Source: a virus | IMG/VR virus record: IMGVR_UViG_3300027833_000146 | Location: 1-32,130 of that record | Length of the DNA: 32,130 nucleotides | Strand: one strand, 5' to 3' | In this document: piece after piece, positions 2,579 to 29,133 of the stretch | Layout: each line of letters starts with the position of its first letter | Position numbering within the stretch: position 1 is the first letter of the stretch | Notes under the pieces: generated by a model | Databases searched by the model: none | What the model was told of the DNA's origin: nothing | Seen by the model: only the letters and a program-made list of their open reading frames with translations | Translations under genes and position numbers: made by a program

Positions 2579-2579
2579 A

Positions 2580-6851: not shown

Positions 6852-7591
6852 TGACTGACTTTACTACTTATAGTAACATACTACCTGACCCTAATAATCC
6901 TATTGGAAACGCTGGTCAGGGCGGTGTAAATCAAACAACTGCGGGGTTGGGCTACTCTTCTGTGTCTCTAACTTCGGAGCATAAAATTCTAAATTCTCGT
7001 ACTAATTCAGGAAGACTAGTAAGCAGAGAGCTTTCTGGTCATCAATGGAAAATATCAATAGGCTACAACCCTATGCTTCGTGATGACTTTGAACGCATTA
7101 ATGCTTTCTTGGTACAGAAGAGAGGGTCTATGACGCCTTTCTTTGTGTCTCTTCCTCAGTATAAAGCCCCACAAGATAGTACTTTCGCTACCTTTGTTGC
7201 TAGCAATACTTTTACAAACTCAGCTACAGGAGCAGCTGGTACAACTAATTTATTAATTAGCCATAGCTCGTACTCTTCATCAAACGGTGTTGTAAAGCCG
7301 GGCGATATTTTTACTATAACGGACGATACGAATAGTAACCATAAAAAAGCTTACCAAGTAACTCGAGTTGAAAAGACAGACGAAAGCTTAACCGGCGCAC
7401 CAGCTATTGCAAGTACTGCTTTGTTGATACATTTTAACCCGCCTCTACAAAGAGCTGTAGCTGCAAATAAGAATATAAACTTTAACAACCCCTTATTCCG
7501 TGTAACCATGGCAGGCGATGCAACTGAATATGAACTAAACACAAATAATTTATATAGCTTCTCTTTGAAGCTAGAAGAGGTCCAAGCATAA
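6851..7591 (+). CDS. distal-tail / minor tail protein
   Basis: A 246-residue protein between the tape measure and the giant tip protein, the place of lambda gpM or the distal tail protein of other siphoviruses. The most conserved-looking block is SGHQWKISIGYNPMLRDDFERIN followed by AFLVQKRGSMTPFFVSLPQY (residues about 62-102), matching the beta-strand/helix pattern of tube-like distal tail proteins. A Ser/Thr-rich stretch (about 117-150) may be a loop or small inserted domain, and the C-terminus returns to a strand-rich pattern (YSFSLKLEEVQA). It is translationally coupled at both ends by TAATG. It probably forms the ring joining the tube to the tip protein. The role is inferred from position and fold style. 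Confidence 0.6.
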   Translation: MTDFTTYSNILPDPNNPIGNAGQGGVNQTTAGLGYSSVSLTSEHKILNSRTNSGRLVSRELSGHQWKISIGYNPMLRDDFERINAFLVQKRGSMTPFFVSLPQYKAPQDSTFATFVASNTFTNSATGAAGTTNLLISHSSYSSSNGVVKPGDIFTITDDTNSNHKKAYQVTRVEKTDESLTGAPAIASTALLIHFNPPLQRAVAANKNINFNNPLFRVTMAGDATEYELNTNNLYSFSLKLEEVQA

Positions 7592-15909: not shown

Positions 15910-15938
15910 TTGACATAACACCCCAAGTTAGCTATAAT
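15910..15938 (+). promoter_or_regulatory. consensus sigma70 promoter
   Basis: TTGACA (15910-15915) and TATAAT (15933-15938) have a 17-base spacer, a second perfect consensus match. An A7 tract precedes the -35 box, as at the first promoter. The predicted start near 15945 would leave a leader of only about 13 bases, just enough for GGAG (15947-15950) ahead of ATG 15958. It would drive the connector and fibre genes independently of the upstream tail operon. Confidence 0.85.
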
Positions 15939-15957: not shown

Positions 15958-16299
15958 ATGACAGCAGCCGTATACAACCTAGTTATTGACCAAGGTTCCG
16001 ACTTTGCAATAGACTTAACAATCAAAGAGCTAGGATCTGCTAAAGATCTAAGCGGCTATTCTGCACGTGCTCAAATGCGGTCTACTAGGACTGCTTCTAG
16101 TGTTACCGCTACTTTTGACTGTACAGTATTAAACCCTGTTACAAATGGAGTAGTAAAAATGTCGTTGTCAAACAGTGTTTCTTCAGCTCTTGCTGCCGGT
16201 AGGTATTTCTATGATTTAGAAATACACACCGCAAATAATGCCGTAGTTCGCAGACTAATTCAAGGAGAGGTTACTCTCAACCCCGAAGTAACAAGATAA
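15958..16299 (+). CDS. small tail-tip/baseplate-type structural protein
   Basis: A 113-residue beta-rich protein directly after the tip gene and behind its own promoter. The pattern YNLVIDQGSDFAIDLTI, then DLSGYSARAQMRS, then AAGRYFYDLEIHTANNAVVRRLIQGEV is the style of the N-terminal domain of baseplate upper proteins (BppU-like) and of small attachment proteins in many tailed phages. GGAG lies seven bases before the ATG. The stop overlaps the next start (TAATG), coupling it to the following gene. It most likely attaches fibres to the tip. The family assignment is from pattern memory and is moderately sure. Confidence 0.6.
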   Translation: MTAAVYNLVIDQGSDFAIDLTIKELGSAKDLSGYSARAQMRSTRTASSVTATFDCTVLNPVTNGVVKMSLSNSVSSALAAGRYFYDLEIHTANNAVVRRLIQGEVTLNPEVTR

Positions 16300-16703
16300 T
16301 GTCTATTACCAACCCCACAATAGTAACTGTCAGCGAGTCAATAACAGACATAACAGTTACCGGACAAGAAACTATAGCGGTTGATATTACTCAGTCAGAT
16401 GTAAACGTAGAAGTAAACAACTTCGTACTTCCTAGCCAGTCCCAAGATGCGCAAAATACAGTAGTAGCTCCTTATGGAACTATTACTGCTACAAATGTGC
16501 AAGATGCGTTAAAACAACTTGCCGACCAAGATTTTAGATCCACAAGTACGCCTACAGGAACAAATGTTTCAGAGGGTGACACGTGGTATGATACCGATGA
16601 TAATATAATGAAAGTATATCGCGAAGTGAGCACCGGTGTATTTGCATGGACTAATTTAGTTGTTGCAGATACGGACGATTTACTTGATGCAGGAGCCTTT
16701 TAA
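16299..16703 (+). CDS. fibre connector / minor structural protein
   Basis: A 134-residue protein translated in tandem with the preceding gene. The N-terminal third is a Val/Thr/Ile-rich strand region (IVTVSESITDITVTGQET), the middle has TNVQDALKQLADQDF, a small helical motif found in stalks of marine phage fibres. The C-terminal part (EGDTWYDTDDNIMKVYRE, then VFAWTNLV) resembles the short beta-hairpin module seen in tail fibre bases. No enzymatic residues are apparent. It probably bridges the tip complex and the fibres encoded downstream, which is inferred from context. Confidence 0.5.
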   Translation: MSITNPTIVTVSESITDITVTGQETIAVDITQSDVNVEVNNFVLPSQSQDAQNTVVAPYGTITATNVQDALKQLADQDFRSTSTPTGTNVSEGDTWYDTDDNIMKVYREVSTGVFAWTNLVVADTDDLLDAGAF

Positions 16704-16721
16704 GGCTGACCGGAGACCCCA

Positions 16722-17714
16722 ATGGCTCAAACAATTTTAATCAAAAGAAGTACTAGTACCGCTATTCCCACAGCATTATCGAATGGTGAGTTAGCATATT
16801 CAGCACAGAGTAATAAGCTATTTATAGGACGTCCTGGAGGCGGTTCCGGAGACATTGACGCGATTGGTGGTAAGTATTATACTGATATTATTACTGGAGC
16901 AACTGACGCAAACACAGCCAGTAAGCTGGTATTGCGAGATGGCTCAGGAAACTTCTCCGCAGGAACAATTACAGCGACCTTAACAGGTACTGCTAGTGAT
17001 ATTTCAAACCATAATACGAATGCATTAAGTGAAGGTTCAACTAACTTATACTTCACAGATGCTAGAGCCGATGCCCGTATAGCCGCAGCTTCTACTAGTG
17101 ACCTATCAGAAGGCACTAATTTATACTATACAGATGCGAGGGTGTCTACTAGAGCAGACACAATATTAAACCATTCTAACCACGGTAATATTACAGTATC
17201 TAAGGTAGGAAACGAGCTACGCTTCTCAGCAGCATCACAGTATGGAGACAGCGATGTACAATCATACTTATCGGGAGGCACCGGAGTAACTCTTAGTTCT
17301 GGTGGCGAGTTTAGTATCGGTCAGGCAGTTGCCACAACTGATAACGTAACATTCAATAACGTTACTGTAGACGGTACTTTATCTTCTGACGATATTACAG
17401 CCGCAACAATGACAGCATCTGGACACGTAGTTGTTCAGGGCAATCTTACTGTAAACGGCACAACTACTACTGTTAACTCGAATACTGTTGCCATTGGCGA
17501 CTCTATTATGGTACTCAACAATGACGAAACAGGCACTCCTTCTGAGAATGCAGGCTTTGAAGTTGAACGAGGAACTGCTACTAACGTTTCTGTACTTTGG
17601 AACGAAGGTACAGACTACTGGCAGATTAATGATGGCAGTACTACTTCGAAGATAATGACAGCAGGCAATTTCGCAGCTTCCTTCACAGGCATACTTGACG
17701 GCGGCACATTCTAA
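16722..17714 (+). CDS. tail fibre base / structural fibre protein
   Basis: A 330-residue beta-structured fibre protein. The N-terminus MAQTILIKRSTSTAIPTALS, then NGELAYSAQSNKLFIGRPGG, is a tail-attachment motif shared with the next gene (MAQTIKLKRSATQGAIP). It continues with paired (S/T)DLSEGTNLYYTDARV and SEGSTNLYFTDARADARI repeats (about 108-145), then VTFNNVTVDGTLSSDDITA and a domain with VQGNLTVNGTTTTVNSNTVA and NAGFEVERG, typical of structural proteins of marine myo- and siphophages. GGAG precedes the ATG. It is likely a proximal fibre segment, with no tip domain visible. Confidence 0.65.
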   Translation: MAQTILIKRSTSTAIPTALSNGELAYSAQSNKLFIGRPGGGSGDIDAIGGKYYTDIITGATDANTASKLVLRDGSGNFSAGTITATLTGTASDISNHNTNALSEGSTNLYFTDARADARIAAASTSDLSEGTNLYYTDARVSTRADTILNHSNHGNITVSKVGNELRFSAASQYGDSDVQSYLSGGTGVTLSSGGEFSIGQAVATTDNVTFNNVTVDGTLSSDDITAATMTASGHVVVQGNLTVNGTTTTVNSNTVAIGDSIMVLNNDETGTPSENAGFEVERGTATNVSVLWNEGTDYWQINDGSTTSKIMTAGNFAASFTGILDGGTF

Positions 17715-17733
17715 AAATAACTATAAATCTCTA

Positions 17734-17745
17734 GCGTATATACGC
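17734..17745. repeat. 12-base palindrome in intergenic gap
   Basis: GCGTATATACGC is a perfect 12-base palindrome in the 49-base gap between two fibre genes, followed by aagtttt. It could be a weak terminator stem or a protein-binding site. The stem is short and the T-run poor, so function is unclear. Confidence 0.35.
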
Positions 17746-17763
17746 AAGTTTTAGGGGAGCCAC

Positions 17764-18684
17764 ATGGCACAAACGATCAAATTAAAACGTTCTGCAACGC
17801 AGGGCGCTATACCGTCTACTTCTTCACTGTCGTTAGGCGAAGTTGCTATCAATACATATGATGGCAAGATGTACATCAAGAAAAATGATGGGTCAGATTC
17901 TGTAGTTGAAATAGGGGGTAGTAGTGGAGCTGCTGCTGCTACGGGTATATGGAAAGAGTATCTGTATACTGCTACTGCTAATCAAACTGCATTTACAGGA
18001 GCCGACGACAACGGAGTACCCCTTACTTTTACTGCAGGACAAATTCAAGTATTTTTCAACGGTGTTCTTTTAGAACCTACGACAGACTACACTACTGCAA
18101 GTAATACAGTTACTCTTGTGTCAGGTGCTGCTGTTGGAGATATTATCCAGGTCGCATCAGCGAGTGTTGTTTTAGGTACTGGAGATATTCTTACAGACGT
18201 CTTTACAGGTGATGGGTCCACTGTAGCTTTTACTCTTTCTACCGCTCCTGGCGTAGAAAGCAATACTCTGATTTTTATAGATGGTGTATACCAGAGTAAA
18301 ACTGGATATAGCATATCGAACACTACATTAACTTTTAGTGGCGCGCCAGCGAACGGAGCCGAAATAGAAGCATCTATTGGCTCTAGAGAAGTTTCTTATC
18401 CAGATACAACAGCAATAAATCTCAGCGGGGATTTATCGGCCGTAAACGGATCTTACTCAGGCACCCTTACAGTAGGGTCTTTGGATATTGCAAGTACAGG
18501 AGCGCTTCAAAGCCCTGTAGGTACAACAGCTCAAAGACCCTCCTCCCCCGCAGCAGGACACTTCCGTTTAAACACTACAACGGGTAAATTTGAAGGCTAC
18601 TCTACACAATGGAGCGAGCTGGGTGCAACTTCAACAGTCGAAGCATTAGAAGACGAAGTGATACTTAATTTAGGAGTAATTTAA
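17764..18684 (+). CDS. modular tail fibre protein
   Basis: A 306-residue fibre protein whose N-terminus (MAQTIKLKRSATQGAIPSTS, then LGEVAINTYDGKMYIKK) is paralogous to the preceding gene and probably anchors it to the tail. Two copies of a beta module follow: residues about 66-133 (QVFFNGVLLEPTTDYTT) and about 140-205 (FTGDGSTVAFTLS, FIDGVYQSKTGYSI). Near the C-terminus is GTTAQRPSSPAAGHFRLNTT followed by GKFEGYSTQWSELG, a module also present in the stalk at 23073. GGGGAG precedes the ATG. The gene runs directly into the first fibre cassette. The role as fibre shaft is inferred from modules and context. Confidence 0.65.
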   Translation: MAQTIKLKRSATQGAIPSTSSLSLGEVAINTYDGKMYIKKNDGSDSVVEIGGSSGAAAATGIWKEYLYTATANQTAFTGADDNGVPLTFTAGQIQVFFNGVLLEPTTDYTTASNTVTLVSGAAVGDIIQVASASVVLGTGDILTDVFTGDGSTVAFTLSTAPGVESNTLIFIDGVYQSKTGYSISNTTLTFSGAPANGAEIEASIGSREVSYPDTTAINLSGDLSAVNGSYSGTLTVGSLDIASTGALQSPVGTTAQRPSSPAAGHFRLNTTTGKFEGYSTQWSELGATSTVEALEDEVILNLGVI

Positions 18685-19269
18685 ATGCCAGTACAAAATA
18701 CCAACTTTAATACGCTGATTACAGCGATCGATACAAAAGGACAAGCTCTAGCTGCTGCTGCGACCTCGGCAAAAGATCTTGTCTTTTTAGGCAAAACACT
18801 TGAGGCGCTCAATGTTACAGCTACAGTCTCAGATATTATTGGACAAGGGGACACACAAGTAGGTCTTGTAACTACACAAGGTACTACACAAGTAGGTCTT
18901 GTAACTACTGCGGGTACTACGCAGTTAGGTCTTGTAAACACTGCAGGCACTAACCAAGTTGCTTCTATTAACTCTGCCGCAGCTACGTTTAGTACTCACC
19001 CTCAAGGTACCACTACAAGCACAAGTAAAACTCTCGTAGCTAATGAGTTTGTACTTGTAGACACAGCGACTCAAACAATGACTCTTCCTGCAGGCGTAGC
19101 AGGGCAGTCTGTAGTTTATATTGCTGTAGGCAATTTTGTAGATACAGTTGTCGCTCCGAATGGTTCCGAAAAGATTATGGGCTTAGCTCAGTCAATGACG
19201 ATCGATAAAGCCAATACCACAATCACACTTATGTACCACTCAGCCACTCATGGCTGGCGTGCATTTTAA
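18685..19269 (+). CDS. fibre stalk 1 with GW cap domain
   Basis: A 194-residue stalk. The N-terminal third is helical (ITAIDTKGQALAAAATSAKD), then come three 11-residue repeats TQVGLVTTxGT (about 57-89). A C-terminal domain of about 80 residues follows: TLVANEFVLVDTATQTMTLP, then VYIAVGNFVDTVVAPNGSEK, ending TLMYHSATHGWRAF. This cap recurs at the ends of the proteins at 21196 and 25731 and, in diverged form, at 23073. Each is followed by a variable gene. GGAG precedes the ATG, which abuts the previous stop. It probably carries the tip encoded next to it. Confidence 0.6.
   Translation: MPVQNTNFNTLITAIDTKGQALAAAATSAKDLVFLGKTLEALNVTATVSDIIGQGDTQVGLVTTQGTTQVGLVTTAGTTQLGLVNTAGTNQVASINSAAATFSTHPQGTTTSTSKTLVANEFVLVDTATQTMTLPAGVAGQSVVYIAVGNFVDTVVAPNGSEKIMGLAQSMTIDKANTTITLMYHSATHGWRAF
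18853..18960 (+). repeat. 33-base coding tandem repeats
   Basis: Three 33-base units (18853-18885, 18886-18918, 18919-18951) and a partial fourth encode TQVGLVTTQGT, TQVGLVTTAGT and TQLGLVNTAGT. Length multiples of three keep the frame, so copy number could change by slippage without disrupting the stalk. Confidence 0.85.
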
Positions 19270-19282
19270 TTAGGAGAAATAA

Positions 19283-20725
19283 ATGAGTAATTTAACAGAT
19301 TTTTTTGGAAAAGGCGGGCCAAGGGTACCAGGAAAAGCCGCACACTCGCAGCCTGCTTTTGTAGTAATGGGGAGTAACTCTAGTAGCTATTTAAAAGCTA
19401 TTGTTTATGATCACTCTTTAAAGTCGCTTGGAACTTTCGAATCCCGTATGACAAATAACAGTGAGTTTGGTAGCTCAGGTAATTGGAACTATAACACTAA
19501 TCCGAGTGGCGAATATTCCAATAATAACGGGCACGGTATCTCTAAAAATGGTTATTTAGGTAATACAATAGGCTATACAACAAAAGAAACCTTTGAGCAA
19601 ATGACGAGCTATGATAGAGGCATAAATCCCGCGAGGGAGACACATTACGATTACGGTGGCGTACCAACTGCAATGGTAGGAACAAATCCTGGCATAAAGC
19701 AAAACTATGCTATAGGTACTTCTCACATCCTAGGCGTAGGTACCGCGGCTTTCATAAGATCTTGCCCCCGGAGTAATCGACGTATTATGAGAAACTTTGA
19801 TGGTCAAAATATCGGAGGCGCGATTGGCAATGAAAATGATCTGGTTTACGTGCAAACCGTAGGCATGTTAACCTCTGGATATCGTTTAGCCGCAGGAGGC
19901 TTTAGTTATAATCAAAATTCAGGCAATGCTGTTATTATTGAACGCGACAATTCCAGCACCAACACCGAATGGCGTCCTGTCCTCATAAAAAACTTTCCAG
20001 ACCCTGCAAAATATGTATCTGATCAAAAAGCTTGGGGAGCCGCAATTACGGCTATAACCGCAGTTTCGGCTAACCGAGTTGTCGGAGGCGGTACGAGCTC
20101 ATCTAGTAGAGATAGCATTGGCAATAATATCACTAAAGCACTTCTTTGTGATAATAATGACGTGTTTATTATGGGCAGTACAACTAATGGCGTACAGGTA
20201 CGACGGTGGCGTTGGAACTCAGGCACCAATACCTGGGACGCGCCAACAGCGGCGGATAGAGATTGGACTACTAAATATCATAACGATGGAACCGCCTCCT
20301 ATCCAAATTGGTGTATGTCTTTAGATGGCAAAACAGCTGTTCTTATGACCCACTCATACTATTATATGACCGGATACTATTTAACAATAATAGATGTAGC
20401 TACGGGAAATGCTCATAACTATTATCATACTACTAGCAGTGGCAGTTATAGTATAACTCCTATCGGAGCTTCTGAATTTTTATTTTCCCATAGCACCAAC
20501 ACTGATGGTTTTGCGGGAGTGTATACGACTGTAATATCATGGGATAAGATACAATATGATGCAACCCCAGACCATTTTACGGCCCATGCCCACCACCCTG
20601 CTCACATGACGCCAATTTATCGATTTATTGATGCGCCGCATAATAGCACAAACTATCCGACTATATGCCCTCTGATTGATGTTGATAACGAAAGCATTGT
20701 ATTTGCAGAAAAAGGAGAACTATAA
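19283..20725 (+). CDS. variable fibre tip 1 (candidate receptor-binding protein)
   Basis: A 480-residue protein with a short Gly-containing leader (MSNLTDFFGKGGPRVPGKAA) that resembles the starts of the other tips in the array, then a long Asn/Ser/Tyr/Trp-rich body. Strand-turn repeats of about 50-60 residues (AFVVMGSNSSSYLKAIVYD, LLCDNNDVFIMGSTT, WCMSLDGKTAVLMTHS, YLTIIDVATGNAH) suggest a beta-propeller-like fold. Aromatic and His-rich loops (DHFTAHAHHPAHMTPIYRF) look surface-exposed. AGGAG precedes the ATG and the stop overlaps the chaperone gene (TAATG). I do not recognise a named family. The receptor-binding role is inferred from location after a stalk and before a chaperone. Confidence 0.5.
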   Translation: MSNLTDFFGKGGPRVPGKAAHSQPAFVVMGSNSSSYLKAIVYDHSLKSLGTFESRMTNNSEFGSSGNWNYNTNPSGEYSNNNGHGISKNGYLGNTIGYTTKETFEQMTSYDRGINPARETHYDYGGVPTAMVGTNPGIKQNYAIGTSHILGVGTAAFIRSCPRSNRRIMRNFDGQNIGGAIGNENDLVYVQTVGMLTSGYRLAAGGFSYNQNSGNAVIIERDNSSTNTEWRPVLIKNFPDPAKYVSDQKAWGAAITAITAVSANRVVGGGTSSSSRDSIGNNITKALLCDNNDVFIMGSTTNGVQVRRWRWNSGTNTWDAPTAADRDWTTKYHNDGTASYPNWCMSLDGKTAVLMTHSYYYMTGYYLTIIDVATGNAHNYYHTTSSGSYSITPIGASEFLFSHSTNTDGFAGVYTTVISWDKIQYDATPDHFTAHAHHPAHMTPIYRFIDAPHNSTNYPTICPLIDVDNESIVFAEKGEL

Positions 20726-21159
20726 TGAAACCTACACTTAACGAACAAGGCTATATTACAAGCAGTACAGGAGGGGCAATAGACGCTCCAGAGGCAGCTA
20801 CAAATTTAACAGTATTCCGATACAGACGCGTAGACGGTGCCTGGGCTGATGCGTTTCCTGGCGAGACTGATGAAAACTTTATGATGAGTTATAATACTCT
20901 CAATGAAAGTTGGTCACTTGCAGAAAGAAAAGCACTTAGTATAGAGCCTATCAAGATGGAAGCCGCAAGGCGAATTGAAGCATTAGCTTGGAAAATCGAG
21001 CGCGCTACTGAAGTCGATGCAGTGGATGGTACTAACACTCTGGCAGGTGTATACGCAGAACGTGCAGCAATTCGTGCCGCAAGTAATGCTCATGAGGACG
21101 CGCTAAGTGCAGTCACTACTTTAGCTGAGATGAATGAATTTAACCCTGCGGGCTTTTAA
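20725..21159 (+). CDS. fibre chaperone 1 (tail fibre assembly-like)
   Basis: A 144-residue protein following tip 1 with a TAATG overlap. The N-terminal part (LNEQGYITSSTGGAIDAPEA) is an extended strand region. The C-terminal two thirds are helical (KMEAARRIEALAWKIERATE, then LAGVYAERAAIRAASNAHEDAL), in the style of C-terminal helices of small tail fibre assembly chaperones. It ends NEFNPAGF. It probably helps tip 1 fold or trimerise. It differs from the chaperones of cassettes 2 and 4, so the array carries more than one chaperone type. Role inferred from helical content and position. Confidence 0.55.
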   Translation: MKPTLNEQGYITSSTGGAIDAPEAATNLTVFRYRRVDGAWADAFPGETDENFMMSYNTLNESWSLAERKALSIEPIKMEAARRIEALAWKIERATEVDAVDGTNTLAGVYAERAAIRAASNAHEDALSAVTTLAEMNEFNPAGF

Positions 21160-21195
21160 GTACAGCTTTCAATAGCAAGCTAATCGGAAACTAAA

Positions 21196-21729
21196 ATGTC
21201 AAAATCAAAAGCAAGACATATGGGTGACATGATGGGAGCAGACGGTATCGTAAAGACTACCTCTGCTCCTGCAGTTGCCACTGCACGTTTAGCTACGGGG
21301 TCAGTCACGACAGATAAAATTGCAGATGCCAATGTTACAACCGCAAAGATCACAGATAGTAATGTTACAACCGCAAAGATCGCAGATGCCAATGTTACAA
21401 CTGCAAAGATCGCAGATAACGCTGTTAATTCCGATAAGGTTACTCCTACTCTTGCGGTGGGCGTACCTACTACCGTAATCAGCAGCTCAGCTACAGCAGT
21501 GGCAAATAATCACTATTTTATAGATACCGCCACACAAACACTTACTCTTCCTGCTAGCCCAACGGCTGGGCAGAAAGTATTGGTAACTGTGGGTAATTTC
21601 ACAGATACTACAGTTGCTCGGAATGGCGAAAATATCGCATCTCTCGCTTCTGACTTAATAATAGACGTAGCAAACATGGGTGTAACCCTTTGCTACACGA
21701 ACACATCAAGGGGGTGGGTAGTACTATGA
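21196..21729 (+). CDS. fibre stalk 2 with GW cap domain
   Basis: A 177-residue stalk. The N-terminus (MSKSKARHMGDMMGADGIVK) leads into a run of 10-residue repeats of the type NVTTAKIADA (about 36-85), a classic shaft repeat of phage fibres. The last 80 residues form the same cap as stalk 1: SSATAVANNHYFIDTATQTL, VTVGNFTDTTVARNGENI, then a terminal SRGWVVL. The stop overlaps the next start as ATGA, so tip 2 starts at 21726. A 36-base gap with a small AGCTT/AAGCT stem separates it from the previous gene. Function as a fibre shaft is inferred from repeats. Confidence 0.65.
   Translation: MSKSKARHMGDMMGADGIVKTTSAPAVATARLATGSVTTDKIADANVTTAKITDSNVTTAKIADANVTTAKIADNAVNSDKVTPTLAVGVPTTVISSSATAVANNHYFIDTATQTLTLPASPTAGQKVLVTVGNFTDTTVARNGENIASLASDLIIDVANMGVTLCYTNTSRGWVVL
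21331..21420 (+). repeat. 30-base coding tandem repeats
   Basis: Three 30-base units (21331-21360, 21361-21390, 21391-21420) start with AATGTTACAAC and encode NVTTAKITDS, NVTTAKIADA and NVTTAKIADN. Differences are few, mostly in the last two or three codons, so the units are recent duplications. Confidence 0.85.
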
Positions 21730-22877
21730 CAGCATTAACAGACTTAATTTCAGCAGGCGGAGGCGGCTCAGAGATTAACGAGATCAAATTCTTTACGGAT
21801 AGAGGGAGCTCATTTACCGATTCTAATGGGCAGGTTTGGTTGAAGGCCGGGGCTAAGACAGTGGACGTGACGACCTACCCAGATGCTGATAGTGGTTTGA
21901 CCACGCTCTCATTTAGTAGCGATTACCAAGCGGCGGAGAGTTCATCTACTTCTATGAACGGCAAAGGGTTAAGCCTGTCTTCTGACAACGTGTGGGCACT
22001 AAATCTTGACAGCGGCACGCAAATCCGCGTGACCGACCTAGCTACGGGTACGGTATCTCACTTTACTCCTTACAATGGATTTAACCCCGCGGGCGTTGGC
22101 TACGTCAAGGCAGCAGCCAGTTCGGGGCTCACAACACCTCTTTCTAATGCCAATGGTTACTTTATGGGAGTGTTGGGGGGATTTAATGGCACTTCTCTTC
22201 TGAGCTTTCACCTAATCGGGGGTTCTGGTACTGATGCAGGTAAGTCTAATGGCCTACAAGCATGGCTTGTATTGAGGGATCCTTCAGGCACGGGACTAAA
22301 CGCTTCACCTTATAATTATACTGCTACCACCCAGCCCGCAGCTTTTCATTGGAATCCTGCAACTCGATATTTATATGTGATGTTTGCTTCCTCCACAACT
22401 AGGTGCCACTTGTTTATTTACAACATGAGTGGCAACGATTGGGGAAACATCAACGCAGGTAATGGAACGTCGACTCAATTAAATGCTTCGTCATTCATAG
22501 ACTGGCAAACGCAGTCTGGGGCTAACTCTATTTATCATATGTCAGGAAGTTCTACGCACCTATATGTACATTACCGCAATGCATCTTACACCCGTAACAT
22601 AAGAAAAATACCTTTGTCGGGTAATCTGAGCTGGGCGTCGGGCACAGATGTTGGAACCAGCAACTCAGGCCTTCTGCAAAATGCTGATGGTACTTTTTCA
22701 ACTCTTAACTTCCGAGACTACCCCGTTTATTATCGGACTGCTGGGTCAACGGAAAAATTTCTAGTACACGACAATCCTAACAACAAGCTGCACGAGATTA
22801 CTTTAGACGTTCCCATAATTGGTCAAGCCGCATGGGATTACCGCAGGGCGCAAACCCCTTATCAGAGGATAAAATAA
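21726..22877 (+). CDS. variable fibre tip 2 (candidate receptor-binding protein)
   Basis: A 383-residue protein. I start it at ATG 21726, overlapping the stalk stop (ATGA) with GGGGTGGG upstream, rather than at the upstream TTG (21690); this gives MTALTDLISAGGGGSEINEI, matching the other tips. Next is QVWLKAGAKTVDVTTYPDAD, a motif shared with tip 3. The body has repeated strand-turn blocks (NVWALNLDSGTQIRVTDLAT, YLYVMFASSTTRCHLFIYN, HLYVHYRNASYTRNIRKIPL) suggesting a beta-propeller-like domain. The C-terminus WDYRRAQTPYQRIK resembles that of tip 3. It overlaps the following chaperone (TAATG). The adhesin role is inferred. Confidence 0.55.
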   Translation: MTALTDLISAGGGGSEINEIKFFTDRGSSFTDSNGQVWLKAGAKTVDVTTYPDADSGLTTLSFSSDYQAAESSSTSMNGKGLSLSSDNVWALNLDSGTQIRVTDLATGTVSHFTPYNGFNPAGVGYVKAAASSGLTTPLSNANGYFMGVLGGFNGTSLLSFHLIGGSGTDAGKSNGLQAWLVLRDPSGTGLNASPYNYTATTQPAAFHWNPATRYLYVMFASSTTRCHLFIYNMSGNDWGNINAGNGTSTQLNASSFIDWQTQSGANSIYHMSGSSTHLYVHYRNASYTRNIRKIPLSGNLSWASGTDVGTSNSGLLQNADGTFSTLNFRDYPVYYRTAGSTEKFLVHDNPNNKLHEITLDVPIIGQAAWDYRRAQTPYQRIK

Positions 22878-23071
22878 TGATTGGAATGATAGTATTGACC
22901 CCCGAGCAAGAAGCTAGAGAGTGGCGTGATGCAGAACTGGCGCGCACTGACATAGCCGCTATGGTTTCTGACTTCCCTAATGTAGATGCTATCTTAGTCT
23001 ATCGAGTGGCACTACGGAACTGGCCTAGTACAGAAGACTTCCCAAGTATTCGCCCAGAGCTAGGAGAATAA
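22877..23071 (+). CDS. fibre chaperone 2 (phage_tail_APC-like, short)
   Basis: A 64-residue protein starting at ATG 22877, which overlaps the tip stop (TAATG) with GAGGA eight bases upstream; the longer reading from 22832 is less likely. It reads REWRDAELARTDIAAMVSDF, then LVYRVALRNWPSTEDFPSIR. The pattern R..RD.eL..tD, short gap, YR.aLR.wP matches the small tail assembly chaperone family PF16778 as I remember it. The C-terminal RNWPSTEDFP block is almost identical in the chaperone at 26338. It probably serves tip 2. The absence of an N-terminal domain makes it a minimal member. Confidence 0.6.
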   Translation: MIGMIVLTPEQEAREWRDAELARTDIAAMVSDFPNVDAILVYRVALRNWPSTEDFPSIRPELGE

Positions 23072-23072
23072 A

Positions 23073-24683
23073 ATGGCGTTAACTCGAATCAAGTCTGACA
23101 GCATAACAACAGGTGTTGTTGAAGGCAAAGTAGATGCACACTTATCTGGAGGAACGGGTATTACCCTATCCTCTGGAGTCATTGCGGTCGACTCAACTAT
23201 TGCAACAAACGCGTCTGTCACAGCTGCAATTGATGGACTATTAGACTCCGCTCCGGGTGCATTAAATACTCTCAACGAGTTGGCTGCATCTCTCGGAGAT
23301 GATGCTGATTTTGCAAATACTGTAACTACTAGTATAGCTGCTAAGCTTCCTACTGCAGGAGGCACTCTAACAGGTCCTCTTACTATTAACGATACAAGTG
23401 CTACTAGAGTTTCTGCAGGTACAACAGCACAGAGAACTTCAGGAACTCCGGGAGACTTTCGTTATAATAGTACAACAGGTAAGTTTGAGGGGTATTCAAG
23501 CTCTTGGGGAGACATTGGAGGAGGAGCTAATTTTACTTTAAATCAGTTTACCGGCGATGGATCTACTACTGTATTTACCTTATCAGGTTCAGCGTTAGAG
23601 GAGCTTAATAGCCTACTTTATTTAGATGGAGTCTATCAGTCAAAATCAAGCTATGATTTAACGGGTACTACCCTTACTTTTTCTCCTGCTCCTGCATCAG
23701 GAGTATCTATAGAATTAATGGGGATAGTTATGTCTCCCCCCACCACAAGTAACCAATTTACTTTAAATCAGTTCACGGGAGACGGATCCACAGTAGCCTA
23801 CACACTTACACTTTCTCCCTTTTCTGATAACGAAACTAGTGTCTATATTAACGGGGTATACCAGTCAAAATCAAATTATGGTGTATCTGGTACTACTCTT
23901 ACTTTTACTACTGCTCCTCCTGCAGGTACTTCTGTTGAGGTAATGGTAGCAAGTAGTGTGGTCGTTTCTATAAGCACTCCAAATGATGGCACTGTTACAA
24001 CATCAAAAATTGTAGATAGTGCTGTTACTTCTGCAAAGATTGCTAATGGTTCAGTTACTGCTGATAAGCTAGCTGCGGGTGCAGGAGGTGCTTTTAATGA
24101 CTTTGTGATTAAAACAGCTAGCTACACAGCAGTTGCTCGTGATCAAATTATTACTAATAAAGCTGTAGCTGCTCCTGCTACTTATGCTGTAACGGTTTCC
24201 GGAGGAGTGTTTCATATTGATGGATCTGCTAACCCTGTATTAGTTCTCACACGAGGAATAACGTATACTTTTACACAGTCTGATAGTACTAATGCTAACC
24301 ACCCTATTGCTTTTAAAGATACAGCAGGAAATAGTTATACAACTGGAGTAACTTCAACAGGTACTCCAGGAAATGCTGGAGCACAAACAGTATTCGTAGT
24401 ACCTGCAAATGCACCTTTAGGAGGTCTTCGATACTACTGTACAGTACATGGCAACGGTATGGGAAATACAATAAACATAGTTGAACCCGGTCTTACAATT
24501 ACACTTCCGGTCTCACCTGTAGCAGGCAATTCAATATTTATTAAAAATGCAGGAGCTGCTACAGTAACAGTGGGTCGTAATGGCTCAAACATTAATTCAA
24601 CAGCAGACGATGGTGAACTGATTACAGATGCAGCGGCAACGCTAGTATATGTAGACGGCACCATCGGATGGAAGGAGCTATAA
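23073..24683 (+). CDS. large fibre stalk 3 with cupredoxin-like domain
   Basis: A 536-residue mosaic fibre. In order: N-terminal MALTRIKSDSITTG and a coiled segment with LLDSAPGALNTLNELAASLG (about 50-70, a widespread fibre helix); GTTAQRTSGTPGDFRYNSTT and GKFEGYSSSWGDIG (about 111-148); two FTGDGST beta modules (about 156-218 and 231-294); VTSAKIANGSVTADKLA repeats (about 309-335); a cupredoxin-like domain (about 368-470) with candidate copper ligands H410, C456, H459 and M463; and a C-terminal piece (PVAGNSIFIKNAGAATVTVG to IGWKEL) related to the GW cap. ATG follows GGAG. It probably bears tip 3. Confidence 0.7.
   Translation: MALTRIKSDSITTGVVEGKVDAHLSGGTGITLSSGVIAVDSTIATNASVTAAIDGLLDSAPGALNTLNELAASLGDDADFANTVTTSIAAKLPTAGGTLTGPLTINDTSATRVSAGTTAQRTSGTPGDFRYNSTTGKFEGYSSSWGDIGGGANFTLNQFTGDGSTTVFTLSGSALEELNSLLYLDGVYQSKSSYDLTGTTLTFSPAPASGVSIELMGIVMSPPTTSNQFTLNQFTGDGSTVAYTLTLSPFSDNETSVYINGVYQSKSNYGVSGTTLTFTTAPPAGTSVEVMVASSVVVSISTPNDGTVTTSKIVDSAVTSAKIANGSVTADKLAAGAGGAFNDFVIKTASYTAVARDQIITNKAVAAPATYAVTVSGGVFHIDGSANPVLVLTRGITYTFTQSDSTNANHPIAFKDTAGNSYTTGVTSTGTPGNAGAQTVFVVPANAPLGGLRYYCTVHGNGMGNTINIVEPGLTITLPVSPVAGNSIFIKNAGAATVTVGRNGSNINSTADDGELITDAAATLVYVDGTIGWKEL
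24166..24480 (+). other. cupredoxin-like domain of stalk 3
   Basis: The encoded segment LTRGITYTFTQSDSTNANHP, then VVPANAPLGGLRYYCTVHGN and GMGNT, carries the plastocyanin-type order His (410), then Cys-x2-His-x3-Met (456, 459, 463). The His to Cys distance of 46 residues is close to the 47 of plastocyanin (H37 to C84). Copper binding is a prediction from the residues only. Confidence 0.6.
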
Positions 24684-24684
24684 G

Positions 24685-25665
24685 ATGGCAATTACATTAG
24701 GTGGTAGTAGTGGGGGCGGTGGCACTGAAATTAACGGCTTAGTAGAAGGGATGACAGGTAAGTCTATGTACACTACCGCTTCGGGGGAGGTTTACTTGCA
24801 AACTGGGAGGACCTTAACAGACGTTGCTTCTTACCCCGACGCACAACTAAACATAGGGATAACAAAAGACCCTACGACAGTGGCAATCAGTAACCCGTGG
24901 TACGGTTCAGCAAGTGATGGGGTTTTAGGCTTTGGTATGACTACTTCCAAGGTGATAGTTATCTCCACCGTTACCGACGCAACAGGGGCGTGGGCGTGGT
25001 CAGCCAATGTCGGTTTAGGTGCTGAGTACAACACTTGTACTTCTACCACCCTTCAATCCTCATGTGATATGGTTGTGGTGGATAATGGAGGCTCTAAGGA
25101 TTTATACGTTTTAGGTTATAGCGTAACAGCTACTAATGGTGTTGTAATCAAACACGCTGGTGTCACTAGTACAAGTCTAGGATCAGTTTCAACCATAACC
25201 CTGCCTTCGTTCATGACAGTACCTAGAGGGCTTACATGGGATGGTACTTATTTCTGGGTGTATGATTGGAATACTCAATCAGTACATAAGCTAACTTCTT
25301 CTTTTGCGGACACTGGCGAGTCGCACTATATTGGCTTTGGCCATTGCAAACTTGAATATGATTCCGGAGCATCAACCGTCTGGGCTTTCTTTGCAAGTAA
25401 CACAAATATGGAAGTAGCGGGTTTAGCTCTATCCACAGGAAGTAGAATGTGGCCTCACGCGATGAACCTAAACCAACCTCTTAAGGGTATGGTCTACCAT
25501 GCTACCACTAATACGATGGGGCTAATTAAAGGTTCAGGCAACGTTATCCACCCAGTAGACATGACTGAAAAAACGGTAGGGCATCCGTTCGCTATAGTTG
25601 ATTCGAGCAATGCTAGATCACCTCGAAGTGAGAACTACATTAGCTACTATAAGAGGATTAAATAA
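24685..25665 (+). CDS. variable fibre tip 3 (candidate receptor-binding protein)
   Basis: A 326-residue protein with a Gly-rich leader (MAITLGGSSGGGGTEINGL) and the motif EVYLQTGRTLTDVASYPDAQ, shared with tip 2. The body contains strand-turn blocks (DLYVLGYSVTATNGVVIKH, GLTWDGTYFWVYDWNTQSV, TVWAFFASNTNMEVAGLALS) consistent with a beta-propeller-like fold. The C-terminus SENYISYYKRIK parallels the tip 2 end. GGAAGGAG precedes the ATG. The stop overlaps the next gene (TAATG), so unlike cassettes 1, 2 and 4 there is no chaperone gene directly after it. The adhesin role is inferred from the paired stalk and the variable middle. Confidence 0.55.
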   Translation: MAITLGGSSGGGGTEINGLVEGMTGKSMYTTASGEVYLQTGRTLTDVASYPDAQLNIGITKDPTTVAISNPWYGSASDGVLGFGMTTSKVIVISTVTDATGAWAWSANVGLGAEYNTCTSTTLQSSCDMVVVDNGGSKDLYVLGYSVTATNGVVIKHAGVTSTSLGSVSTITLPSFMTVPRGLTWDGTYFWVYDWNTQSVHKLTSSFADTGESHYIGFGHCKLEYDSGASTVWAFFASNTNMEVAGLALSTGSRMWPHAMNLNQPLKGMVYHATTNTMGLIKGSGNVIHPVDMTEKTVGHPFAIVDSSNARSPRSENYISYYKRIK

Positions 25666-25727
25666 TGGCTTTAACACAAATAACAGCAGAGGTAATTGCA
25701 GATAATTCCGTAACTACTACCCTATAG
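25665..25727 (+). pseudogene. severed N-terminus of fibre stalk 4
   Basis: ATG 25665 overlaps the tip 3 stop (TAATG) and begins MALTQITAEVIADNSVTTTL, then stops at TAG (25725-25727). The bases 25724-25741, read one frame off, encode IADDAV, and the original frame resumes after an extra C (25742) with TAAKIAADAITAAKIA. Thus one base is missing near 25719-25723 and one is added near 25742. Repaired, the stalk would run uninterrupted from 25665 to 26078. Confidence 0.7.
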
Positions 25728-25730
25728 CTG

Positions 25731-26078
25731 ATGACGCAGTTCACAGCAGCAAAAATAGCTGCTGACGCTATCACAGCAGCAAAAATAGCTTCAGTGCCTG
25801 TTGCAGTAGGTATTACGTCTGTCGTTACAGCTACGTCCTTAACAGCAGCTGTAAACACACACATTTATGTCAGTGCAGCTACTCAGACTATTACACTTCC
25901 CGCTTCTCCGAGCCTAGGACAGAGAGTCCTTATTACAGTGGGAAATTTTGTGGACACGGTAGTCGGCAGGAACGGATCAAACATTATGAGTCTAGCAGAA
26001 GACCTTACAATGGACACTGCTTATCTTTCAATTCAGTTTATATACACAGATTCTACAGGAGGATGGATAATAGCATGA
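25731..26078 (+). CDS. fibre stalk 4 with GW cap domain (remnant or re-started)
   Basis: A 115-residue frame in the same phase as the severed leader just upstream, beginning at an ATG that only exists in this frame because of the indels. Residues 1-30 hold degenerate shaft repeats (FTAAKIAADAITAAKIASV). The rest is the GW cap: SLTAAVNTHIYVSAATQTI, VLITVGNFVDTVVGRNGSNI, ending STGGWIIA. No ribosome binding site stands before ATG 25731, so translation may depend on re-initiation after the TAG or on readthrough. The intact form would have 137 residues. The stop overlaps tip 4 (ATGA, 26075). It may be functional without its extreme N-terminus. Confidence 0.55.
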   Translation: MTQFTAAKIAADAITAAKIASVPVAVGITSVVTATSLTAAVNTHIYVSAATQTITLPASPSLGQRVLITVGNFVDTVVGRNGSNIMSLAEDLTMDTAYLSIQFIYTDSTGGWIIA

Positions 26079-26338
26079 GTAATTTTACAGGATTTATAGG
26101 CGGCAGCAGCAGTGTAATTAAAAGTATACAAAAAGTATCAATGGGTGGTTCTAGTAGCGGTAGTGCTACAATTAGCGCAGTAGACCTCAACAAAACCTTT
26201 ATTACTCTTGTTAGTAGCTCTACTAAGGATAATACTTACTACCCCCGAGTAGGCACCGTTACTTCTACATCAGTGTCGGGCTACTGGGGCGGTGGCTACC
26301 AGATGGGCATGACCGTATATGTTGTGGAGTATAACTAA
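26075..26338 (+). CDS. small fibre tip 4
   Basis: An 87-residue tip. I start at ATG 26075 because MSNFTGFIGGSSS lines up with MSNLTDFFGKGG of tip 1 and it overlaps the stalk stop as ATGA; ATG 26063 sits directly on AGGAGG and is less likely. The body (VIKSIQKVSMGGSSSGSATI, SAVDLNKTFITLV, ending GYWGGGYQMGMTVYVVEYN) is a compact beta domain of the kind found at the ends of many marine phage fibres. It looks complete, not truncated. The stop overlaps the chaperone start (TAATG). Receptor binding is inferred. Confidence 0.5.
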   Translation: MSNFTGFIGGSSSVIKSIQKVSMGGSSSGSATISAVDLNKTFITLVSSSTKDNTYYPRVGTVTSTSVSGYWGGGYQMGMTVYVVEYN

Positions 26339-26730
26339 TGAGTATTTATGTAAGAATAGAAAAAGTTAATTGGGGAAACAAAAACACTTCTGACGTAGAA
26401 GAATTAGACACTGTTACGGCTGTTGTTACTACGACAGGGGTTATAGAAGACACTGATTATCAGTTAGCTGAAGAAGAGCCAACAATAAACTCTATAAAAG
26501 TTGAAGGTAATTTTGTAGAAAGAGAAGATGTCTTTGAGCCTTTTATTCCTGAGACTACAAAAGCAGAATACGCTAGACGTAGAAGGAACGAATTACTACA
26601 GGAAACTGACTGGATAGTTAATGTATCTGACCATCCACAACACAGTGCTTACATAGTCTACCGTACAGCCCTACGTAACTGGCCTTCTACGGTAGACTTT
26701 CCAGCCACACGCCCAGTACTCGGAGAATAA
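26338..26730 (+). CDS. fibre chaperone 4 (phage_tail_APC-like)
   Basis: A 130-residue chaperone. The N-terminal half is a strand-rich domain (VRIEKVNWGNKNTSDVEELD, ESSENTIALLY acidic after it). The C-terminal half (AEYARRRRNELLQETDWIVN, then YIVYRTALRNWPSTVDFPAT) shows the RR..ELL..tDW...D......YR.aLR.wP pattern of PF16778 as I remember it. The last 18 residues are almost identical to those of the chaperone at 22877 (RNWPSTxDFPxxRPxLGE), so the two genes share a recent ancestor. GGAG lies about ten bases before the ATG. It probably assists tip 4 and might also serve tip 3, which lacks its own. Confidence 0.6.
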   Translation: MSIYVRIEKVNWGNKNTSDVEELDTVTAVVTTTGVIEDTDYQLAEEEPTINSIKVEGNFVEREDVFEPFIPETTKAEYARRRRNELLQETDWIVNVSDHPQHSAYIVYRTALRNWPSTVDFPATRPVLGE

Positions 26731-26732
26731 GA

Positions 26733-27446
26733 ATGGCATTTACTAAAGTTTCAAACAGTCTTTTAGCAGATAATTCTGTTACTTCAGCTAAGTTTGCAGA
26801 TGGTGCAGTTACTTCAGCTAAGTTTGCAGATGGTGCAGTTACTTCAACTAAGATTGCAAGCAGCGCAGTAACTGCAGACAAAATTGCAGATGACGCAGTT
26901 ACTTCAGATAAAGTAGCTAATGATATTAAAGTAGCCGGTATAGAGACTATTTATATACCTGCAGCAGGTATGTATCCAGAGACAACTAACGGGTGCGCTG
27001 ATCTAGAGCAAGTCGAACTAACTAATGGCCCCGAACTCAAGTGCCTAGACTTTGCGGCTGCAGCGGATGCCTTTGCTCAGTTTCAGGTCATCTTTCCTAA
27101 GTCGTGGAATGAGGGCACTGTTACTTTCCAAACCTTCTTTACTGTTACAGGAACAAACACTGGTACGGTAGCCTGGGGATTAGCAGGTAGAAGTTATGCA
27201 GATAATGCAGACATCAACACAGCTTTTGGAACTCAGGTAGTGGCAACAGCTAAAGCTCACTCTGGAACTTCTAATGATCTAAATGTCGCGGTAGTTAGCG
27301 GCGCAGTAACTATTGCTGGAGCAGCGGCTGATGCCTTAACTATCTTCCAGATTGCGAGAGATGTTACGGCAGACAGCCAGACAGGAGATGCGCGCCTTCT
27401 TGGTATTAAGCTTTTCTTCACCACTGACGCTGCAAATGACGCATAA
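26733..27446 (+). CDS. fibre stalk 5
   Basis: A 237-residue stalk. It starts MAFTKVSNSLLADNSVT, related to the first residues of stalks 3 and 4, and continues with five shaft repeats of the type AVTSAKFADG (about 15-65). In place of the GW cap it has a different beta domain of about 170 residues: GIETIYIPAAGMYPETTNGC, LKCLDFAAAADAFAQFQVIF, then TVTFQTFFTVTGTNTGTVAW and ARLLGIKLFFTTDAANDA. That domain is common in fibre and tail proteins of marine phages. It is followed by the Gly-rich tip. The shaft role is inferred from repeats. Confidence 0.6.
   Translation: MAFTKVSNSLLADNSVTSAKFADGAVTSAKFADGAVTSTKIASSAVTADKIADDAVTSDKVANDIKVAGIETIYIPAAGMYPETTNGCADLEQVELTNGPELKCLDFAAAADAFAQFQVIFPKSWNEGTVTFQTFFTVTGTNTGTVAWGLAGRSYADNADINTAFGTQVVATAKAHSGTSNDLNVAVVSGAVTIAGAAADALTIFQIARDVTADSQTGDARLLGIKLFFTTDAANDA
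26778..26867 (+). repeat. 30-base coding tandem repeats in stalk 5
   Basis: GTTACTTCAGCTAAGTTTGC and the following ten bases occur twice exactly (26778-26807 and 26808-26837), with a third, diverged unit (26838-26867). They encode VTSAKFADGA. Perfect identity of two units indicates a very recent duplication. Confidence 0.9.
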
Positions 27447-27455
27447 GGATCAAAT

Positions 27456-28346
27456 ATGACTGGTTTTGGTTATAACGTAAGCGGTTTTGGCTCTTTTCCT
27501 AGCCGTGGTGCGGGCTTGTACGCATTTACTGCTGCTACATTTACTCCTGGGAGCAATACTGGAAATACTGGCCCAAGTCTTGCAGTAGCACGTGCAGGCC
27601 TTACTGGCACAGGAGTAAACGCTTGGAAAAACGACACTCAGTTTTTTAATACCTCCAGTGGGATTCAATTATGGACTGTACCTGCTGATGGTACTTACCA
27701 AATTGAAACTTGGGGCGCTCAAGGAGGTGATGAAGCTAACGCAGGTAGAGGGGGTTCTGGGGCAAGAATGCGAGGCGATTTTACTTTTATTTCTGGTGAA
27801 GTTATAAGTATACTGGTGGGACAGCATGCTAATCTAAGCCGAAATGGGGGCGGTGGAGGAACATTTGTATATAAAACTGCAACTAGTACTTACCCTCTCA
27901 TCGCCGCAGGTGGTGGAGGTGGTTGGGGAAGTAGCGGGCAAAATGCAAGTCATGGTAGGACAAGCACTTCTGGAGGTACTACTTACGGAGGCGGTTATGC
28001 TAGTGGCACTGGAGGCAATGGAGGTAATACAGCAACAAACTCCGGCTGGGGAGGCGCTGGGTCTGGGTGGTTGACTAACGGAACGTCAGGCGGCGCATAT
28101 GGTGGTCAATCATATGCGCCTCGAAACGGAGGAGCCGGAGGAAATATTTTTGTATGCAGCGGAGGTTATGGTGGTTTTGGTGCGGGCGGAGGCGGTGGTT
28201 GTAACGGCGGCGGTGGCGGTGGTGGCTATAGTGGAGGAGGTTGCTCCGGAGGTGGGGGTGGTTCCTACAATGGTGGAACTAATCAAAGTAATTCAACCGG
28301 TGTTAAGACTGGAAACGGTCAAGTAACTATTACTAAAATAGCGTAG
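27456..28346 (+). CDS. glycine-rich fibre tip 5 (adhesin-like)
   Basis: A 296-residue protein. The N-terminal 65 residues end in a linker, followed by FFNTSSGIQLWTVPADGTYQ and IETWGAQGGDE, then GEVISILVGQHANLS and GGGGGTFVYKT. This pattern, a strand domain opening into glycine-rich segments, matches the glycine-rich domain family of ALK-type proteins (PF12810 as I remember it). The second half has six or more poly-Gly runs (GGAGGNIFVCSGGYGGFGAG, GGGGGCNGGGGGGG) as in the polyglycine-helix sandwich of gp38-type adhesins of T-even phages. It ends GNGQVTITKIA. Likely a receptor-binding tip; composition differs sharply from neighbours. Confidence 0.65.
   Translation: MTGFGYNVSGFGSFPSRGAGLYAFTAATFTPGSNTGNTGPSLAVARAGLTGTGVNAWKNDTQFFNTSSGIQLWTVPADGTYQIETWGAQGGDEANAGRGGSGARMRGDFTFISGEVISILVGQHANLSRNGGGGGTFVYKTATSTYPLIAAGGGGGWGSSGQNASHGRTSTSGGTTYGGGYASGTGGNGGNTATNSGWGGAGSGWLTNGTSGGAYGGQSYAPRNGGAGGNIFVCSGGYGGFGAGGGGGCNGGGGGGGYSGGGCSGGGGGSYNGGTNQSNSTGVKTGNGQVTITKIA
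28092..28120. repeat. 10-base inverted repeat inside tip 5
   Basis: GGCGCATATG (28092-28101) and CATATGCGCC (28111-28120) are perfect inverted repeats with a nine-base loop, inside the coding sequence. They encode GAYGGQSYAP. Low-complexity codon use could create it by chance, but it could also form a stable mRNA hairpin. Confidence 0.6.
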
Positions 28347-28356
28347 AGTAGAATAA

Positions 28357-28842
28357 ATGTTAAAATATATTAAAATAGAGAATAATCAACCAATAAACTA
28401 TACACTTGAACAACTATTGATAGATTTTCCAAATGCAATAATTTACAAAAAAACAAAATTGCCAAACGAAGACTTAATAAAAAAATTCAATGTATATCCT
28501 TTAATAACAACGCAATCACCTGAGCTGCAAGAGGATGAAACTGCGGAAGAAGGAATTCCTGTATTTAAAGATAATGAGTGGACTCAAACTTGGAATATTC
28601 GAAAATTAACTCAAGAAGAAGTATCAGACATTATAGAAAGTCATTTAATAGAGGTAGAAGAATTAGAGACAGATGCAGTGTTTTCAGCATTTTTCGTAAA
28701 TACAGAAGTGCGAGAAGCTAGATATGATATTTGTAAGCTATGTACTTCGTTCACTGCATTAAAAACTTGTAACGAATGCCACTGTATAATGCCCTTAAAA
28801 ACTAAACTTAGAGATACTGTTTGCCCTCTTGGAAAGTGGTAA
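28357..28842 (+). CDS. last fibre gene: chaperone-like with zinc-type C-terminus
   Basis: A 161-residue protein after tip 5. The N-terminal part (MLKYIKIENNQPINYTLEQL, LIDFPNAIIYKKT) and the Glu-rich middle (KLTQEEVSDIIESHLIEVEE) look like a tail fibre assembly chaperone. The last 40 residues (122-161) contain C126, C129, C138, C141, C143 and C156 in the order CxxC-x8-CxxCxC-x12-C, ending CPLGKW. This compact cysteine module occurs in proteins of marine phages and probably binds zinc. Its position suggests it assists the Gly-rich tip. Codon use is strongly AT-rich beside the GC-richer poly-Gly gene. It is the last + strand gene before the terminator. Confidence 0.5.
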   Translation: MLKYIKIENNQPINYTLEQLLIDFPNAIIYKKTKLPNEDLIKKFNVYPLITTQSPELQEDETAEEGIPVFKDNEWTQTWNIRKLTQEEVSDIIESHLIEVEELETDAVFSAFFVNTEVREARYDICKLCTSFTALKTCNECHCIMPLKTKLRDTVCPLGKW

Positions 28843-28853
28843 TCTATACAATA

Positions 28854-28877
28854 AAAAAGGGCTTTTCAGCCCTTTTT
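28854..28877. terminator. bidirectional intrinsic terminator
   Basis: AAAAAGGGCT (28854-28863) pairs with AGCCCTTTTT (28868-28877) around a TTTC loop. The T-run on each strand follows a GC-rich stem core, so it works for the + strand fibre operon and the - strand replication operon, which converge here. Confidence 0.9.
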
Positions 28878-28891
28878 CACTTTGTTACTCT

Positions 28892-29119
28892 TTAAACTAC
28901 TTCAGCTTCTGCACGTGGTTTTTCTAACTCTTCCTGTAGCAAGTTTGTAAAACCTGCAATACCTACTTGAATCTGGTCAAGACGGCTACGAGCTTGATTA
29001 GCCTGTGTTTGCATGTCCTGTACCTGTGATAATAGATACTTCGCTCTATCAGACAGTTCGTCTACTTTGTACTCTTTATCGTTCATAGATATGGTTTGTA
29101 CTTCATTTTCTTTAGTCAC
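28892..29119 (-). CDS. small DUF6447-like protein
   Basis: A 75-residue acidic helical protein: TISMNDKEYKVDELSDRAKY, then LLSQVQDMQTQANQARSRLD and QIQVGIAGFTNLLQEELEKP. The order, a short beta start followed by a coiled-coil helix with KxxLSDxAKYL, is that of DUF6447 proteins seen in cyanophages and other marine phages. The function of that family is unknown. It is the last gene of the - strand operon, 14 bases after the reductase and just before the terminator. The coiled-coil pattern suggests a small oligomeric accessory protein. Confidence 0.7.
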   Translation of the reverse strand: MTKENEVQTISMNDKEYKVDELSDRAKYLLSQVQDMQTQANQARSRLDQIQVGIAGFTNLLQEELEKPRAEAEVV

Positions 29120-29133
29120 TATAATGTCCTTTA

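Follow-up and report, generated by a model that had tools for sequence, protein, structure and literature searches.

The window analysed here, a stretch of 32,130 nt, is the whole of the IMG/VR virus record IMGVR_UViG_3300027833_000146, a single 32 kb contig, and between positions 18685 and 28842 it carries an array of 14 short genes in which stalks, tips and chaperone-position genes of tail fibres follow one another in a repeating order, with tips that are exchanged between related genomes. All the array features, and those of the transcription unit around them, lie on the plus strand. An initial annotation had described the region as five tandem cassettes of a stalk, a tip and, in all but the third, a chaperone-like gene, and the 14 open reading frames (ORFs) are indeed all present in that order; the array itself stands, with corrections to the fourth stalk, which is interrupted, to the chaperone label and to the uniformity of the fifth cassette. 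The stop/start coupling of the genes applies to 6 of the 13 junctions, which are overlaps of 1-4 nt, the remaining junctions being gaps of 1-36 nt. All fourteen genes recur with unchanged order in an independent contig, IMGVR_UViG_3300009079_000198 (L127), and the stalk slots are kept in another lineage, L226, which takes the arrangement beyond chance.

Stalks, tips and chaperone-position genes of the array

The stalks S1 (18685..19269), S2 (21196..21729), S3 (23073..24683) and S4 (25665..26078) have a C-terminal domain in common (43-52% identity, E down to 1e-36), here called the socket, which occupies about 19009-19266 in S1, 21463-21726 (residues 90-177) in S2, about 24495-24680 in S3 and about 25818-26075 in S4. 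The socket of S2 was predicted by AlphaFold from 83 sequences with a predicted local distance difference test (pLDDT) score of 97-98, and the model matches the XD1 domain of TSP4 from phage CBA120 (Z 14.4, root-mean-square deviation 1.3, 90 residues), as well as the long tail fibre connector gp9 of T4 (Z 10.8) and gp10. The end domains of S1, S3 and S4 are assigned to XD1 by their sequence similarity to S2. The XD1 fold thus places the stalks among phage fibre connectors. In parallel, S2, S3, S4 and the fifth stalk, S5 (26733..27446), are classed as tail fibre by PHROGs (phrog_892, E 4e-13 to 8e-24), and repeats of 30 nt are common to S2, S3 and S5. S4, annotated from 25665, does have an ATG there; twenty codons on, at 25725, a TAG interrupts the reading frame, which resumes at ATG 25731. 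The TAG is created by two compensating one-base differences from the contig L128 within 25665-25731, L128 being 99.9% identical to the window over 23739-31138. Since S4 is uninterrupted in both L128 and L127, the stop would represent either a lesion of recent origin, with restart of the frame, or an error of the assembly.

Each stalk is followed by a separate tip gene. T1 (19283..20725), T2 (21726..22877), T3 (24685..25665) and T4 (26075..26338, only 87 aa) begin with a short conserved start, here called the plug, which reads MSNLTDFF, MTALTDLI, MAITLGG and MSNFTGFI, respectively. Plugs are about eight residues long, contain no Trp and are followed by a linker, and two thirds of the tips have at least three Gly in residues 9-18. 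The tips had been described as unrelated or alike only at their ends, and the comparison agrees: T2 and T3 are similar over the first ~55 residues and at the last residues (RIK), and no other pair is detectably so. The sole known relative of T1 is its counterpart in L127, none being found beyond it in viral contigs, cultured phages or the PDB. The T1 and T2 proteins gave zero matches in cultured phages, the T2 family profile gave zero matches in the PDB, and comparison with Pfam and PHROGs profiles assigns T1, T2 and T4 to no recognisable family. The profile of the T3-type family, compared with the PDB, hits the beta-propellers Pizza6 and PknD (E 1e-11 to 1e-6). T5 (27456..28346) is Gly-rich, as are many relatives, and matches phrog_22713 (E 1e-30); it also shows Gly-rich ALK matches, which may reflect composition. 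The fifth cassette is of a different kind, as S5 is without the shared end domain and T5 is without a plug of the common type.

The genes in chaperone position are likewise of two sorts. C2 (22877..23071), which has a short N-part, and C4 (26338..26730) are recognisable as APC chaperones by their matches to Phage_tail_APC (PF16778), with E 1e-8 and 1e-7 and with 35.1 and 32.0 bits, respectively, against a curated cut-off of 26.6. C1 (20725..21159), a small gene of unrecognised family without a Pfam match and with 92% identity in L127, and C5 (28357..28842), which matches phrog_13558 (E 6e-12), gave no match to PF16778 up to E 0.1 and are therefore called chaperones by position only; the chaperone label given to cassettes 1, 2, 4 and 5 thus holds for the second and fourth. 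The Cys-rich end motif of C5, which fits phrog_13558 and, weakly, DUF6171, is unlike the APC chaperones. Cassette 3 (24685-25665) has no chaperone in either the window or L127; T3-related tips in L131, L219 and L226 precede an APC gene.

Covariation of plugs with sockets and exchange of tip bodies

Every stalk ending in the shared domain was paired with the next gene in the fetched IMG/VR loci, and removal of near-duplicates left 102 non-redundant stalk/tip pairs, with tip bodies that fall into 35 groups at E 1e-5. Across these pairs the plug, taken as tip residues 1-8, covaries with the socket (Mantel r 0.68, reached in 0 of 2000 permutations), the corresponding value for the tip body being 0.31. 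Indeed, among the 193 pairs of sockets that are at least 80% identical, the bodies have no detectable similarity in 120. Plug identity is 0.71 when the nearest socket is combined with an unrelated body, against a background of 0.26, and 0.13 when a homologous body stands behind a dissimilar socket. Shared ancestry as the sole source of the covariation was therefore rejected, since the rule applies to pairs whose bodies are unrelated and breaks down where homologous bodies follow other sockets. Typical combinations of stalk end and plug are ...GWVMS with MSNF(S/T)DFI, ...GWKEL with MAIKLGGG and ...ATIGWAIA(Q/H) with MSTYSTFA. A second rule concerns the chaperones, an APC protein being found directly after the tip in 62 of the 102 pairs. 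The N-part of the chaperone goes with the body of its tip (r 0.64, reached in 0 of 1000 permutations), with identities of 0.63-0.66 for homologous bodies regardless of socket and of 0.15-0.29 for non-homologous bodies, and the APC half is similar throughout (0.47-0.65).

The exchangeability of tips, put forward in the initial annotation, finds strong support both in the replacement of tips between near-identical backbones and in bodies that recur after distinct stalks while their first eight residues differ. As for the former, the upstream genes of the window and L127 share 96-98% protein identity and the stalks 76-99% (over all columns, 88% for S2, 99% for S3 and 89% for S4), and the tips, again over all columns, have 59% (T1), 24% (T2), 25% (T3), 14% (T4) and 90% (T5), the counterpart of T4 being an unrelated tip of 291 aa. 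The blastn blocks between the two contigs stop 47, 20 and 27 nt into T2, T3 and T4, and restart within C2 for T2, in the final codons of T3 itself and within C4 for T4. As the blocks end inside the tip and restart inside the chaperone, the exchanged unit consists of the tip body and, if a chaperone is present, its opening part. The ratio of nonsynonymous to synonymous substitution rates (dN/dS) is 0.09-0.49 in every comparable gene, which indicates purifying selection. As for the latter, the tip in slot 2 of L135 is 96-97% identical, across its entire body, to the one in slot 1 of L137 and L144; starting at the Gly codons their DNA hardly differs, whereas the stalk ends and plugs do. Similarly, a tip in L267 that bears another plug shares 68% identity with the body of T2 from the window, and thirteen more T2-type loci in which the stalk can be read (some of them near-duplicates) have a plug type that fits the stalk of their own locus.

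Besides exchange between genomes, L129 shows copying from one slot to another within a single contig: at positions 60-3519 one tip (795/801 nt) and its chaperone (324/324 nt) follow each of two different stalks, and the tip start is not the same in the two places; this duplicate could also be an assembly artefact. L226 has five consecutive sockets, and its stalk starts match those of S2, S3, S4 and S5 in the same order. Five further relatives (L003, L008, L009, L014 and L015) have the same flanks as the window, but one gene of 1400-1800 aa and two smaller ones instead of the cassettes.

A stalk end followed by a plug is also present in cultured phages, namely Roseobacter phage CRP-2 (gp53/gp52, plug MSNLSDFLGGSGGGG), Nitratiruptor phage NrS-4 (stalk end 51, tip 52, plug MSTLSSFGG), Pelagibacter phage Mosig (stalk end 63, tip 62, plug MADLRDFTG) and Synechococcus phage S-CAM1 (stalk end 104, tip 105, plug MSSLRDLL), the tips of which are all annotated as hypothetical. 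In other phages socket and tip body form a single chain, as in the pelagiphage HTVC023P and in L260, L269 and L281, and these natural fusions include a socket joined to a Gly-rich body. The hidden Markov model of the stalk also hit repeat regions within long fibres, and a case was taken as a fusion only if its socket end was clearly of the GW type. A scan of bacterial genomes found four contigs, three of which have a stalk end and then a plug.

The transcription unit and the surrounding genes

The unit to which the array belongs exceeds 14 genes, as it includes two further fibre genes and two genes ahead of them. A1 (15958..16299) is of the fibre-assembly type, with matches to phrog_1084 (E 7e-27) and to phrog_3304, a family of L-shaped tail fibre assembly (E 2e-18); A2 (16299..16703), to which no function is assigned, is conserved together with A1 and is 98% identical in L127. 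They are followed by the fibre/structural gene F6 (16722..17714; phrog_697, E 8e-26) and by the fibre gene F7 (17764..18684), which is similar to S3 and matches tail-fibre PHROGs; in L226 an F7-type N-terminus is fused to a socket. A sigma-70 promoter, TTGACA-17-TATAAT, with 12 of 12 consensus bases lies at 15910..15938, 19 nt 5' of A1. The same promoter is found, at 11-12 of the 12 positions and 19-21 nt ahead of the ATG, in all of the ~50 loci with an A1 relative, including those in which the A1 protein identity is down to 44%. When the corresponding 90 bases were shuffled 2000 times, 12 of 12 came up once and 11 of 12 five times. An intrinsic terminator with a 10-pair stem and a T tail, identical in L127 and L128, follows the last gene at 28854..28877. 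A1 through C5 thus apparently form one predicted operon with the 14-gene array inside it. A search for inverted repeats of at least 20 nt in 16700-28900 found none.

Upstream of the operon lies a tail hub gene (7591-15885), of which the stretch 7591-13590 is 32% identical to pb3 of T5 (E 1e-33). Because of this resemblance and of the match of A1 to the L-shaped tail fibre assembly family, the marine virus from which the window comes, which infects bacteria, is taken as a T5-like siphovirus. In L137, L131 and L160, unlike in the T5-like window, major head, portal or other virion genes lie directly beside the cassettes, and these differing gene neighbourhoods suggest that the system crosses phage types. 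The array is distant from the phages of the cultured-phage collection, in which megablast of 18000-28900 gave zero matches. Downstream of the array, a class II ribonucleotide reductase gene is found on the opposite strand; in L133 the fibre array is separated from the reductase by a 204-aa gene with a signal-peptide-like start (8309-8923). Another perfect sigma-70 promoter, again TTGACA-17-TATAAT, is present at 824-852, ahead of the tail tube gene at 909.

Readings of the array and comparison with known systems

We consider it likely that the array encodes plug-and-socket fibres with exchangeable adhesin tips, all slots being co-transcribed and probably displayed together. According to the proposed mechanism, stalks 1-4 would terminate in an XD1-type beta-sandwich that works as the socket, and the next gene would provide a separate tip protein, the first eight or so residues of which (MSNFTDFI, MTALTDLI, MAIKLGG and similar) would be the plug. 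The plug would be followed, usually, by a Gly-rich linker that lets the tip move, and then by a putative receptor-binding body from one of many unrelated families. The downstream chaperone would be made up of an N-part specific to its client and an unchanging APC half, and recombination in the linker and in the chaperone (or in the last codons of the tip) would swap the body and the chaperone N-part as a unit, with stalk and plug staying put. Two observations suggest contact between plug and socket: the plug type changes with the type of stalk even when the bodies are unrelated, and natural fusions exist. The proposal that one virion displays several specificities receives no more than indirect support, from the single promoter and terminator, the slot-specific stalk ends, the slot order of L226 and the purifying selection.

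A number of points weigh on the other side. The main weakness is the adjacency of plug and socket in the DNA, as part of their covariation could be due to hitch-hiking if recombination prefers linker codons. The plug codons TTT (F4) and TTA (L5) are invariant, which may point to a constraint on translation start. In CBA120, XD1 is regarded as a spacer and XD2 and XD3 as the docking domains (PMC8825819), so that the fold of the stalk ends by itself does not demonstrate docking. The tip folds are mostly unassigned, T1, T2 and T4 being without a recognised fold, and an AlphaFold model of T3 with ten relatives reached a mean pLDDT of 41, so that no fold is claimed for it. Finally, cassette 5 is an exception to the plug/socket rule, and the S4 frame is broken in the present assembly.

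The alternative that survives best, although we regard it as unlikely, is that only linkage is at work, with swaps taking place at Gly codons, the plug being a feature of translation start or stability, and the tips attaching otherwise or not at all to these stalks. Such linkage would account for a plug that adjoins the socket, for joints at or close to the Gly linker and for the two invariant codons; it is harder to reconcile with plug types that differ sharply by stalk type and are constant over unrelated bodies, with the synonymous variation of most plug positions, at which the residue is kept, and with the existence of socket-tip fusions. It appears highly improbable that the genes in tip position encode soluble products or assembly factors rather than virion tips: the small size of T4 and the lack of a recognisable family for T1, T2 and T4 would fit, but tips are fused to the stalk end in other phages, they turn over rapidly between near-identical backbones, as is typical for receptor-binding parts, and bodies of the Gly-rich and propeller type are found among them. 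Least probable of all is the in-genome reserve of the initial annotation, in which one or few tips would be built into virions and the others would be silent spares recombined on demand into an expression slot, as the tip and chaperone held twice by L129 and the interrupted S4 slot of the window are outweighed by one conserved promoter, one terminator, a single orientation, intact starts, the lack of inverted repeats, dN/dS below 0.5 in each comparable gene and the slot order kept in L226.

The chances seem about even that the plug-and-socket arrangement reflects a general code across phage types, by which an XD1 socket would take tips via an eight-residue peptide, the client code of a two-part chaperone would move with the body, unrelated bodies would circulate in a shared marine phage pool, and the gene after an XD1-ending stalk would be a predictable receptor-binding protein in uncultured viruses. 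If true, many genes of uncultured marine phages now annotated as hypothetical could be read as receptor-binding proteins, the exchange of tips from unrelated families would be explained without rebuilding of the fibre, chaperones would gain a readable client code, and multiple specificities per virion would become testable in the cultured phages CRP-2 and NrS-4.

No description of the plug/socket rule, of the split between client and constant parts of the chaperone or of five-slot arrays was found in the open-access literature searched, and one may exist elsewhere. Several known systems share some of these features. In the invertible tail-fibre cassettes of the Mu and P2 type, inverted repeats surround the alternative tips, unlike in 16700-28900 of the window, where none of at least 20 nt was found, and no invertase or recombinase is present among the ORFs of the window matched to families, the contig being a fragment. 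The Alteromonas phages V22 and A5 (PMC7289586, PMC10579305) similarly show a fibre and its cognate chaperone common to distantly related marine phages; there, one fibre and one chaperone are involved, whereas here only the tip body and the chaperone N-part move, and they do so across a series of slots. The branched lateral fibres LtfA/LtfB of DT57C (PMC4728585, PMC10713586) also combine a T5-like tail with more than one lateral fibre protein, in that case two, compared with five short stalks with separate tips in the window. The tailspike complex of CBA120 (Ackermannviridae; PMC8825819, PMC11414711) resembles the array in its multiple receptor-binding proteins (per virion in CBA120, per genome here), in its XD1-type domain and in its modular acquisition; its spikes are single long proteins, unlike those described here, and dock their partners via XD2 and XD3. 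In the gp37-gp38 tip of S16/T2-type phages (PMC6851490), as proposed for the array, a separate adhesin caps the fibre via its N-terminus, its body is Gly-rich (in S16) and its variability in S16/T2-type phages is linked to host range. There, attachment depends on a three-helix domain with a conserved Trp (PMC6851490), whereas the tips of the array would rely on about eight residues without Trp and a linker, and the stalk/tip pairs described here differ further in their 35 groups of bodies, in the XD1 ends of their stalks and in the several slots per genome.

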